NCBI GenBank assembly: GCA_006226685.1
Contig: SBGG01000056.1
Span: 1 to 64,000, forward strand
Direction: 5' to 3'
From: Sphingomonadales bacterium
GTDB lineage: Bacteria; Pseudomonadota; Alphaproteobacteria; Sphingomonadales; Sphingomonadaceae
DNA: 64,000 nucleotides
This document shows positions 11,585 through 15,031 of the stretch, one piece after another; the first letter of the stretch is position 1, and each line of letters opens with the position of its first letter. A model generated the notes under the pieces. That model was not told the DNA's origin. It did not search any database and worked only from the letters and a program-made list of their open reading frames with translations. A program made the translations under genes and the position numbers.

Positions 11585-12928
11585 TTATCCGCGCGCTTGA
11601 AACCGGGCATGAGCCGCATCGGAGAGACGCACCGATATATCGAGTATGTCCTCGCTCGGCCCTTCCCTCGTCTCGATCACCTCACCATATTCATGCAGCC
11701 ATGCCAGCGCCGCGCCATCCGAGGCCGGGACATGCAGGTGGTAAATCGCATTACCCGAAGTCATAAGGTCGCCGATCACACGGCGTAGCGTTTCCTGCCC
11801 CTCACCCGTCATCGCAGAAACCGCGACGACATCGTCCCGACGCGCGGCAATCGTTTCGATTTCCGTGCGCCGTTCGGGGGGCAGCAGATCGATCTTGTTC
11901 CACACTTCGAGATAGGCCGGACGGGAAGACACCTCTCCATCATCCCCCTGCCCGTTATCGGCTCCTTCACCGGCCACGCCCAGTTCCGCGAGAACATCCA
12001 TGACGTCCGCGCGCTGCGCCTCGCTGTCCGGATGGGAAATATCGCGTACATGGATGATGAGATCGGCGAAGATCACCTCTTCCAGCGTTGCCCGGAAAGC
12101 AGCGATGAGCTGCGTTGGCAGGTCCGACACGAAACCGACCGTGTCCGAAAGGATCGCCTTGTCGATCCCGGGGAGCGTGATCTGCCTCATAGTGGGATCG
12201 AGCGTCGCAAAAAGCATGTCCTGCGCCAGCACGCCGGCGCCGGTCAGGCGGTTGAACAGCGTTGATTTCCCTGCATTGGTATAGCCGACCAGCGCGATCA
12301 CCGGCCAGGGGGCTCGCTGCCTCCGGGCGCGATGCAGGCTGCGGGTCCGCGTGACCTGATCCAGCTCGCGCCGGATTTTCGCCATGCGGTCGCGGATCAT
12401 CCGCCGGTCGGCCTCGATCTGGGTTTCACCCGGACCGCCAAGAAAGCCAAAGCCGCCGCGCTGCCGTTCCAAATGGGTCCAGCTCCGCACCAGACGTCCG
12501 GCCTGATAATCGAGATGGGCGAGCTCGACCTGAAGGCGGCCTTCATTGGTCACTGCCCTCTCCCCGAATATCTCGAGGATCAGGCCGGTCCGGTCGATCA
12601 CCTTCGCGCCACAGGCCTTTTCGAGATTGCTTTGCTGAACCGGGGTCAATGCATTGTCGACGATGACCAGTTCAGCTTCATTTTCCTCGGCCAATGCGGC
12701 GATCTGTTCGACCTGACCGCTCCCGAACAAGGTCGCGGGTTTGACCTGACGCACGCGGAACGCAGCCCGCGCCCGCACATCGATCCCGATGGCGAGCGCC
12801 AGCCCTGCGGCCTCTTCCAGCCGGGCATCACTATCGCGATTGTCATGGCCCGGCACATCGGCGCGAGCAACCACTGCCCGCGCGCCACGCGCCACATCAT
12901 CCGCGCTTCCGCGCTCAAAAACACTCAA
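11585..12928 (-). CDS. hflX: Ribosome-associated GTPase HflX
   Basis: A GTPase that binds the 50S subunit and in characterised bacteria splits or rescues stalled ribosomes under stress. The N-terminal glycine-rich HflX domain (GSGQVEQIA and GGFGFLGGPGETQIE, about 68-172) precedes the G domain: G1 GYTNAGKST at 215-223, G3 DTVGF, G4 NKID. A short acidic insert (GEGADNGQGDDGEVSS) sits before G4. A TTG start at 12928 follows GATGAGG at a sensible distance. It lies 63 bases downstream of hfq, so the two probably form an operon, the usual hfq-hflX pairing. Confidence 0.95.
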   Translation of the reverse strand: MSVFERGSADDVARGARAVVARADVPGHDNRDSDARLEEAAGLALAIGIDVRARAAFRVRQVKPATLFGSGQVEQIAALAEENEAELVIVDNALTPVQQSNLEKACGAKVIDRTGLILEIFGERAVTNEGRLQVELAHLDYQAGRLVRSWTHLERQRGGFGFLGGPGETQIEADRRMIRDRMAKIRRELDQVTRTRSLHRARRQRAPWPVIALVGYTNAGKSTLFNRLTGAGVLAQDMLFATLDPTMRQITLPGIDKAILSDTVGFVSDLPTQLIAAFRATLEEVIFADLIIHVRDISHPDSEAQRADVMDVLAELGVAGEGADNGQGDDGEVSSRPAYLEVWNKIDLLPPERRTEIETIAARRDDVVAVSAMTGEGQETLRRVIGDLMTSGNAIYHLHVPASDGAALAWLHEYGEVIETREGPSEDILDISVRLSDAAHARFQARG

Positions 12929-12991
12929 GGCAAGACCTCATCCCGGCGATATAGGGAGCGATCGCCGGGATTCCAGCCACAGACGACAGGA

Positions 12992-13483
12992 TCACTCCTT
13001 GTCGCTGGGTTCGCCGCTGAGATCCAGCGGCCGCGACGGCTGCACGGTCGAGATCGCATGCTTGTAGACGAGCTGCGCCATGCCATCCCGTTCCAGCAAC
13101 ATGCAGAACAGATCGAATGCGGCAATCTCACCTTGAAGCATCACGCCGTTAACCAGGAACATGGTCACGGGGTCGCGCGTACGCTGAACCGCGTGCAGGA
13201 AGATTTCCTGAAGCAGCTTCGCCTTGCGCTCATTTTCCGCGAAGACCGCGCGAATATCGCTGAGGTCGAGCGGCTGAGAGGGCATGACGGTCGAGATCGC
13301 ATGCTTGTAAACCAGCTGGGATTGACCATCGCGGCGCAGCAACACCGAGAAATTGTCGAACCAGGTGATGATGCCCTGCAACTTCACTCCCTTCACCAGG
13401 AACATGGTGACGGGAATCTTCGATTTGCGGAGGTGGTTGAGGAAAATATCCTGTAGATTATTGGAAAGGGACTTTTCGGCCAT
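12992..13483 (-). CDS. hfq: RNA chaperone Hfq with two tandem Sm domains
   Basis: Hfq promotes sRNA-mRNA pairing. A normal subunit is 70-100 residues; this one has 163 because the Sm fold occurs twice. Domain 1 covers about 8-72 and domain 2 about 89-153, an offset of 81 residues. Both keep the lateral and proximal RNA-binding elements: LQ-IFL at the N-terminal helix, FDNF / FDLF, and the YKHAISTV Sm2 signature. They differ on other surfaces: K34 in repeat 1 is M115 in repeat 2, and the basic rim LRKSK becomes VQRTR. A fused chain could build a pseudo-hexamer from three copies. It sits between ntrX and hflX on the same strand. Confidence 0.95.
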
Positions 13484-13660
13484 CGCTTTCAGCCTTCCTT
13501 ATTGGCGGGACCGTTCCCCGCTCTTGCGCCCCTGCCGGGCGTCGTGCCTGTCCTGCGCGTATCGCAGGATGGGTGAAGTCATATCGCAACTGCGAAGACA
13601 TTTCCACCACGGGGCCGGAAAATATTTCCGGAACCCTGCTTCCATCCCCCTGCCCGGCTT

Positions 13661-15031
13661 TCAGTCCTTGTCTTCGGTCAGACCGAGCAGCTTCAGCTTA
13701 CGGTGGAGCGCCGAGCGCTCCATGCCGATAAAGCTCGCCGTTCGGGAAATATTGCCGGAGAAACGCCTGATTTGAACGCGCAGATATTCGCGTTCGAAAT
13801 TCTCCCGCGCCTCCCGTAAAGGGGAAGTCATGATCGAATTGGACATAAGCTGATCGTCGGCCTCTCCCGAGGTCGTTTCCGAGGGCAGCATATCCAGTTC
13901 GATTCGCGCGATTCGATCCGACGGCGCCAAAATCATCGTCCGCTCGATCACATTACGGAGCTGGCGAACATTGCCGGGCCATTCGACCGCCTGAAGCGCG
14001 GCCATCGCATCCGGGGCGACCTCGGGCGTTGGCACCCGTCTGTCGGCGGCAAAACGGGCGACATAATGTTGCACCAGCGCGGGTATATCCTCCCGCCGTT
14101 CGCTCAGCGGCGGGATCGCGAGCGGCACCACATTGAGGCGATAATAAAGATCCTCACGGAAATTCTTGTCCTCGATTTCGGCCGTCAAATTGGTCGCGGT
14201 CGAGGATATGAAACGCACATCGACCTTCACCTGCCGCTGCCCGGCGACACGGGTGAAACTCTGGTCGGTCAGCACCCGCAATATCTTTGCCTGCGTAGTG
14301 AGGGGCATGTCCGCAACCTCATCCAGATAGAGCGTGCCGCCATGCGCCTGTTCCAGAAAACCGGGGCGAACGAGGCCGCTGGGGTCTTCGACGCCGAACA
14401 GCTCTTCTTCCACCCGTTCCGGATCCATGCGCGCGGCGGTGACGATCACGAACGGTCCATCTGCGCGGTTGCTCCAGTTGTGAAGCATCCGGGCGGCGAT
14501 TTCCTTGCCGACCCCGGCAGGACCGGTAATCAGCACGCGGCTGCCGGTGGCGGCGACCTTCTTGATGGTTGCGCGCACAGAATTGATTGCGCTGCTGGTG
14601 CCGGTCAGTTCGTCATCCTGCCCGACTTTCTCACGCAGAACCTGATTTTCCCGGCGGAGCCGTTCCGTCTCGGTCGCGCGCGCCACCAGATGGAGTAGCC
14701 GATCAGCCTCGAACGGCTTTTCGATGAAATCGGTGGCGCCCTTTCGGATCGCTGCGACCGCCGTGTCGATATTGCCATGACCGGAAATCATCAGCACAGG
14801 GATGGTAGGGTCCCGTTTCTTGATCTCCTCCAGCACCTCGAGCCCATCCAGCCGCGACCCCTGCAACCAGACGTCCAGCAATACCAGCGACGGACGGCGC
14901 ACGGTCAGCGCATCCAGCGCGGCATCGGCTCCGGCGGCGGTGCGGGTTTCATAGCCCTCATCCTCAAGGACGCCGGCGACCAGTTCGCGAATATCCTCTT
15001 CGTCGTCGACGATCAGTATATCAAGCGCCAT
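13661..15031 (-). CDS. ntrX: Nitrogen assimilation response regulator NtrX
   Basis: Response regulator partnered with NtrY. An N-terminal receiver domain starts MALDILIVDDEED with phosphoacceptor D53 (LLLDVWLQG). It is followed by an AAA+ domain (Walker A GPAGVGKE, LYLDEVADMP, FREDLYYRLN, EWPGNVRQLRN) and a Fis-type DNA-binding helix at the end (NISRTASFIGMERSALHRK). The sigma-54 contact motif GAFTGA is missing; the equivalent region reads ELFGVEDPSGL. This is typical of NtrX and suggests it does not act as a classic sigma-54 activator. The ATG at 15031 gives the receiver domain its normal start; it overlaps the ntrY stop by 11 bases. Confidence 0.95.
   Translation of the reverse strand: MALDILIVDDEEDIRELVAGVLEDEGYETRTAAGADAALDALTVRRPSLVLLDVWLQGSRLDGLEVLEEIKKRDPTIPVLMISGHGNIDTAVAAIRKGATDFIEKPFEADRLLHLVARATETERLRRENQVLREKVGQDDELTGTSSAINSVRATIKKVAATGSRVLITGPAGVGKEIAARMLHNWSNRADGPFVIVTAARMDPERVEEELFGVEDPSGLVRPGFLEQAHGGTLYLDEVADMPLTTQAKILRVLTDQSFTRVAGQRQVKVDVRFISSTATNLTAEIEDKNFREDLYYRLNVVPLAIPPLSERREDIPALVQHYVARFAADRRVPTPEVAPDAMAALQAVEWPGNVRQLRNVIERTMILAPSDRIARIELDMLPSETTSGEADDQLMSNSIMTSPLREARENFEREYLRVQIRRFSGNISRTASFIGMERSALHRKLKLLGLTEDKD

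Follow-up and report, generated by a model that had tools for sequence, protein, structure and literature searches.

Hfq proteins with two Sm-like domains in one chain have been described in the Sphingomonadales. The accessible text of Yang et al. (2010) reports such a protein in Zymomonas mobilis and in six other species of the order, and raises the question of whether three double-domain chains build a ring (PMC2877685), so that neither the fusion nor the idea of a trimer is new. As far as that text goes, the Zymomonas study concerned domain count and stress tolerance and held no comparison of residues between the repeats. In the available portions of two other papers on Zymomonas hfq, no wording on domains or oligomers was found (PMC7546472, PMC9797736); hfq appears only in the reference list in what is available of PMC10725011, and residues 28 and 31 are unnamed in the accessible part of PMC5575007. 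The open-access literature, among the matches listed and to the extent of their available text, yielded no account of a split between the repeats, which does not establish its absence from print. Double Hfq itself is known; its halves are consistently specialized, in a manner not found described.

A search of solved structures matched 35 distinct PDB sequences, none longer than 114 residues and none a double Hfq. The best solved match is Caulobacter crescentus Hfq (PDB 6gwk), which aligns with the first repeat of the protein studied here and shares its rim residues and a short acidic tail, but has one Sm fold per chain and a ring of six like subunits, each with a rim and a tail. Hfq from Escherichia coli and Pseudomonas likewise differs in having a single repeat, with Asn28 and Lys31 on every subunit. 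The residues that we take to define the proximal, distal, and rim surfaces, and by which the repeats were judged, come from these two proteins.

The window analyzed here is a stretch of 64,000 nucleotides from a member of the Sphingomonadaceae, and its hfq reading frame (12992–13483, minus strand; ATG start, 163 amino acids) is the single Hfq match in the genome. The gene lies between ntrX, upstream, and hflX, downstream on the same strand. No promoter-like or terminator-like sites were found within 12900–13700. An open frame of 374 codons (12332–13456, plus strand) overlaps hfq and part of hflX in antisense and is most likely a by-product of composition, no gene. Up to position 47, chain numbers exceed E. 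coli numbers by 3 in repeat 1 and by 84 in repeat 2, and beyond a single-residue insertion they do so by one more; positions are given in E. coli numbering unless the chain is named. The mapped features are as follows.

12992..13483, minus strand: hfq, a 163-residue tandem (double-Sm) RNA chaperone (reading frame; PF17209 twice; NF010691.0)
13268..13456, minus strand: repeat 1, residues 10–72, with the full rim and the Lys28 plus Lys31 distal state (Pfam stretch; residue counts)
13391..13393, minus strand: codon for chain residue Lys31 (E. coli position 28, repeat 1), gained after the fusion (residue counts)
13382..13384, minus strand: codon for chain residue Lys34 (E. coli position 31, repeat 1), kept (residue counts)
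13214..13267, minus strand: linker, residues 73–90, with a predicted helix at 75–82 (AlphaFold2; linker measurements)
13025..13213, minus strand: repeat 2, residues 91–153, with an incomplete rim set, the Asn28 plus Met31 distal state, and the proximal pocket kept (second Pfam stretch, bounds from the 81-residue offset; residue counts)
13148..13150, minus strand: codon for chain residue Asn112 (E. coli position 28, repeat 2), kept (residue counts)
13139..13141, minus strand: codon for chain residue Met115 (E. coli position 31, repeat 2), where the lysine was lost (residue counts)
12995..13024, minus strand: C-terminal tail, residues 154–163, short and acidic (translation; charge counts)
11585..12928, minus strand: hflX (TIGR03156), the downstream neighbor of hfq, which gave the species-proxy tree (reading frame; profile match)

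The preliminary description had proposed two Sm repeats offset by 81 residues within one Hfq chain, and this was borne out by two stretches matching PF17209, the Pfam Hfq family, and by the spacing of Q11 and Q92. The window protein scores 191 bits against a PF17209 cut-off of 27 (whole-protein E of 2.1e-57) and 184.2 against a TIGR02383 cut-off of 61.7, placing it within Hfq, while a score of 296.2 bits against a cut-off of 270 for NF010691.0 (PRK14091.1; profile positions 20–173 of 176) places it within double-domain Hfq. The two repeats are 66% identical to one another over aligned columns, which far exceeds chance. The motifs claimed for both halves are present in the window translation (LQDIFL/LQEIFL, FDNF/FDLF, and YKHAISTV in each), as are K34 opposite M115 and LRKSK opposite VQRTR. 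A further swap, absent from the preliminary description, lies three residues before the K34/M115 pair: repeat 1 has K31 (chain numbering) where repeat 2 has N112 (E. coli position 28), and this swap is as invariant across the family as the first. The mention of double Hfq as already noted in Novosphingobium was right as to the fusion being known but too narrow, given the Zymomonas protein, ZMO0347, and the six other Sphingomonadales species of Yang et al. (PMC2877685); the likeness of the window protein to ZMO0347, a double-domain Hfq of the same order, rests on the description in the accessible text of that paper.

To describe the distribution of the tandem form, an order sample of 247 genomes was searched, and 246 contained an Hfq match. 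Query coverage divided the 186 genomes of the window's own family (f1) into 176 with tandem and 10 with single Hfq; 150 of these tandems were fetched and read, and 26 were counted as tandem from query coverage alone. Elsewhere in the order, outside f1, all 30 fetched loci were single. By domain counting, 209 of 270 fetched loci encode two Hfq domains and 61 encode one. Of 397 genomes sampled across the phylum, 19 exceed the NF010691 cut-off, all from f1; this cut-off misses some tandems, since the f1 tandem of genome G063 scores 261 bits, just under it. Among the matches listed for a class sample (387 genomes, 333 with a match), only six rows span both repeats without a stop, all from f1, and a few others run past the stop into the neighboring frame.

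Residue counts refer, unless noted, to 200 ordinary tandem ("main") loci, consisting of 141 of the 150 fetched loci and 59 named loci picked as nearest to the window protein; they comprise 179 distinct repeat pairs, and at most 194 are independent because six named loci are identical to a fetched genome over a stretch of 200 bases. One main locus (L148) ends at a contig edge, so that repeat 2 is short one count in several columns and its tail is missing. Nine loci of a fast-evolving clade were tallied apart. The 61 single Hfqs comprise the 10 from f1, the 30 from the remaining families, and 21 named loci (L150–L170).

A tree of the repeats themselves, with columns 28 and 31 omitted, had 63 usable columns and good support on 3 of 89 inner branches, with repeat 1 and repeat 2 needing two changes each. 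Because the domain alone thus leaves the order of events unresolved, the neighboring gene was used instead. The hflX gene lies on the hfq strand in 266 of 270 loci examined; no hflX was found in the other four, three of which are short fetched stretches. L192 (genome G122) is the sole tandem locus on a full-length fetched stretch without an hflX match beside hfq. An HflX tree of 89 rows, built by quick search, groups the 56 tandem loci included (of 209) in one clade (SH-aLRT 99), to which the single-Hfq members of f1 do not belong. A single change of state accounts for the tandem form. A single origin is supported but not proven by this tree, as 22 of its 86 inner branches fall under 80 and seven rows have branches flagged as long (L150, L070, L061, L152, L080, L049, and the tandem L172); in addition, the outgroup is not one side of any branch. 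The HflX tree suggests that Hfq duplicated and fused once, early in the Sphingomonadaceae in the GTDB sense. The single Hfqs of f1 carry Asn28 and Lys31, as do those of other families, and so look like lineages that split before the fusion, not one-repeat remnants.

The clearest repeat-specific difference is on the distal face. Repeat 1 has Lys28 and Lys31 in 200/200 ordinary tandems and repeat 2 has Asn28 and Met31 in 200/200; this combined pattern is found at 200 of 209 tandem loci, with the other nine forming the one fast-evolving clade. All 61 single Hfqs have Asn28 and Lys31, indicating that a distal lysine was added to repeat 1 and another removed from repeat 2, which leaves the total at these positions at two per repeat pair. 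Thus, when the repeats are aligned across sphingomonads, as the preliminary description had suggested, their divergence is both repeat-specific and conserved, and a lack of repeat-specific conservation, the outcome that would have spoken against its proposed split, is not what is seen. The residues that read the distal bases (F/Y25, G29, Q33, Q52, and T61) are retained in both repeats (199/200 in repeat 1, 198/200 in repeat 2). According to the accessible text of a molecular dynamics study of Pseudomonas Hfq, the backbone of residue 28 sits in what may be the pocket of the third (N) nucleotide, and that of residue 31 meets the A nucleotide at its phosphate and ribose (PMC8121710). Lys28 would then add charge near the N nucleotide at repeat-1 sites and Met31 would remove charge at repeat-2 sites, and the K28/M31 pair may alter RNA binding. 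However, the contacts reported in that text for residues 28 and 31 are backbone contacts, which is a point against a functional split at these positions. As reported in the available part of PMC12262471, K31A in E. coli has mild regulatory effects yet gives approximately fourfold fewer RIL-seq chimeras.

The rim also differs between the repeats. The lateral pocket consists of Asn13, Arg16, Arg17, Ser38, and Phe39 in the account available from PMC5379935. From the accessible text of two further studies, E. coli R16A nearly abolishes sRNA–mRNA chimeras while regulation is partly kept (PMC12262471), and arginine patches are required for RNA compaction and transfer (PMC10920880). The full rim set examined here (N13, R/K16, R/K17, R/K19, F39, and R/K47) is present in 200/200 repeats 1 and in 61/61 singles but in 0/200 repeats 2, the window included, which sets tandem Hfq apart from canonical homohexameric Hfq, where each Sm unit has the basic annealing rim. 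Rim charge, summed over positions 16, 17, 19, and 47 and the inserted residue, is +5 in every repeat 1 (200/200) and every single (61/61); in repeat 2 it is at most +2 in 177/200 and negative in 51/200. Position 19 of repeat 2 is Gly, Glu, Asp, Gln, or Asn in 171/200, and position 47 is Glu or Gln in 189/200. The loss is graded, as a smaller lateral pocket set (N13, R/K16, R/K17, and F39) is retained in 40/200 repeats 2 and R16 in 136/200. The rim difference first noticed between LRKSK and VQRTR is real in the window, but this pair understates the family-wide split: the window repeat 2 (H13, Q16, R17, T18, R19, and E47; charge +2) is basic at 17 and 19, whereas Arg19 occurs in only 9/200 repeats 2, and among 14 loci from the window's genus or Sphingobium the window alone is basic at position 19.

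In contrast to the rim, the proximal uridine pocket, which we take to be Q8, F42, Y55, K56, and H57, is kept in both repeats when position 42 is scored as F/Y (200/200 in repeat 1, 199/200 in repeat 2), and both pockets are present in the window. The remaining repeat-specific positions, given as the repeat 1 and repeat 2 majorities with counts of 200, are 15 (Leu/Val; 182/162), 37 (Thr/Ala; 200/164), 38 (Trp/Ala; 200/171), 41 (Asn/Leu; 188/178), 43 (Ser/Cys; 200/179), 47 (Arg/Glu; 200/154), and 63 (Met/Gln; 194/199).

These patterns could reflect selection for specialized halves or, within the same alternating trimer, drift. On the latter account three rims suffice and the second set decayed, and K28/M31 is a single compensated swap that was locked in ancestrally and gives the ring no functional asymmetry, by constructive neutral evolution. 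Both repeats are under purifying selection by dN/dS, and the median dN of repeat 2 is nearly twice that of repeat 1, as drift would have it: 0.057 versus 0.031 in the window's genus (50 pairs, dS approximately 0.9) and 0.216 versus 0.128 among main loci (150 sampled pairs), for pairs filtered to a dS of 0.05–1.5, where dS is near saturation. The repeat 2 rim positions are also variable instead of fixed to a new state, and decay of repeat 2 goes further in the fast-evolving clade, where Gln33 is kept in 0/9. However, the two repeats hold different residues at positions 28, 31, and 63, each with little or no variation, and at positions 37, 38, 41, 43, and 47 a new residue clearly predominates in repeat 2, which would be unexpected under pure decay. 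Drift as the whole explanation is judged unlikely.

The linker and tail provide evidence on how the repeats may be arranged. Counted from position 64 in the first repeat to position 7 in the second, the linker measures 22–24 residues in 180/200 loci (17–26 across tandem loci) and is about neutral (mean charge of +0.1 over the 200 main loci), while the C-terminal tail has a charge of −3 or lower in 194/200; tails of single Hfqs average −3.6. The accessible text on Caulobacter Hfq describes the acidic tip touching the rim of the neighboring protomer, with a tail glutamate bonding R49 and S39 there (PMC6561178). By alignment to repeat 1 (offset of +2), these residues are positions 47 and 37, which are Arg and Thr in 200/200 repeats 1; in repeats 2, position 47 is Glu or Gln in 189/200 and position 37 is Ala in 164/200. 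With docking residues on repeat 1 and the acidic tail on repeat 2, each tail in an alternating ring would adjoin a repeat-1 rim. This pattern is circumstantial, and it forms the main sequence argument for alternation.

An AlphaFold2 prediction for the window protein with 65 relatives (mean pLDDT of 90.1, pTM of 0.85) contains a helix and five strands twice, as expected of the Sm fold, and a short linker helix at residues 75–82; a member of the fast-evolving clade was predicted with a pLDDT of 93.8 and a pTM of 0.89. In a Foldseek search of the predicted structure, the best matches were Caulobacter Hfq chains and all 50 listed rows were Hfq chains; the VIA-align rows cover repeat 1 only. The high pTM values indicate at most a fixed mutual placement of the repeats in the model, not their placement in a ring.

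Two arrangements other than an alternating trimer bear on these observations. Six chains might form two stacked homotypic rings, one of repeats 1 with active distal, rim, and proximal sites and one of rimless repeats 2; the Hfq core is kept in both repeats, the linker, at 17–26 residues, could bridge the rings, and homotypic rings would also permit repeat-specific conservation. The fixed placement of the repeats within one predicted chain is at odds with stacking, as is an acidic tail that would sit on the rimless ring with its docking residues 37 and 47 on repeat 1, and although neither point is decisive, stacked rings appear highly improbable. Alternatively, repeat 2 might be a regulatory appendage outside a hexamer of repeats 1, since repeat 1 alone is near an ordinary single Hfq (mean identity to single Hfqs of 77%, compared with 60% for repeat 2). 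A domain outside the ring would have no need for the proximal pocket and distal readers that repeat 2 retains almost throughout, nor for the Gln8, Lys56, and His57 that persist in repeat 2 of the fast-evolving clade (9/9), and an appendage is thought a shade more improbable still than stacked rings.

The nine loci of the fast-evolving clade belong to genus g13 (L055, L059, L060, and L231–L236) and form one clade (SH-aLRT 99), with tandem Hfqs 41 to 49% identical to that of the window. These are small-genome sphingomonads of 2.1–2.6 Mb. Their repeat 1 keeps Lys28, Gln33, and Phe39 in 9/9, has Arg31 in 9/9 (a K28 plus R31 state), and retains His57 in 5/9; its rim is weakened, with a charge of +2 to +5 and a basic position 19 in 3/9. 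Beyond the loss of Gln33, their repeat 2 has His39 in 9/9 and a helix 1 short by two residues, with Arg at position 31 in 2/9, Arg16 in 9/9, and Phe55 in 7/9. The linker has 17–18 residues and the acidic tail is absent. In part, the clade appears to extend the trend seen in ordinary tandems, with distal reading passing to repeat 1 and the pore held by repeat 2. However, Arg16 and Phe55 in repeat 2, the weak repeat-1 rim, and the missing acidic tail speak against a simple story.

From these data we infer a trimeric ring with alternating repeats and docked tails. It is rather probable that the ring is a pseudo-hexamer built from three chains, with repeats 1 and 2 taking turns around it; all six Sm units would have a proximal and a distal pocket, the distal charge alternating from one unit to the next, and three of the units would have an annealing rim. 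In such a ring, both repeats would supply proximal uridine pockets, allowing sRNA 3′ ends to bind all round the pore, and both would supply the distal adenine and purine pockets for ARN repeats, with distal positive charge redistributed to two lysines (28 and 31) on each repeat 1 and none on repeat 2, compared with one per subunit in ordinary Hfq. A complete lateral pocket and basic patch for sRNA–mRNA annealing would be found on repeat 1 only, placing three annealing rims 120 degrees apart. The former repeat-1 tail would have become the linker and lost its acidity, and the autoinhibitory acidic tail would survive solely at the end of repeat 2, whose ring neighbor would always be a repeat-1 rim. 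The residue patterns suggest that the ring probably runs on three active edges instead of six. A tentative extension, held as somewhat short of probable, is that a built-in asymmetric ring of this three-of-six kind is fixed across most of the family, with repeat-1 units annealing RNA and holding the distal charge, repeat-2 units only holding sRNA tails and reading ARN motifs, and each active rim policed by the acidic tail of its repeat-2 neighbor. Hfq-dependent sRNA control is reported for Sphingopyxis granuli TFA in the accessible text of PMC6563040 (SuhB), and the Sphingopyxis loci L120, L122, L123, and L126 are tandem.

The arrangement bears on two questions about Hfq: how many of its six rims, tails, and distal pockets annealing needs, and whether RNA passes from rim patch to rim patch round the ring, a "spooling" raised as a possibility in the available text of PMC10920880. 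Both questions are hard to test in a homohexamer, where any substitution is present in all six subunits. A family whose evolution has taken away every other rim and spared both binding faces would allow ordinary point mutants to test them directly.
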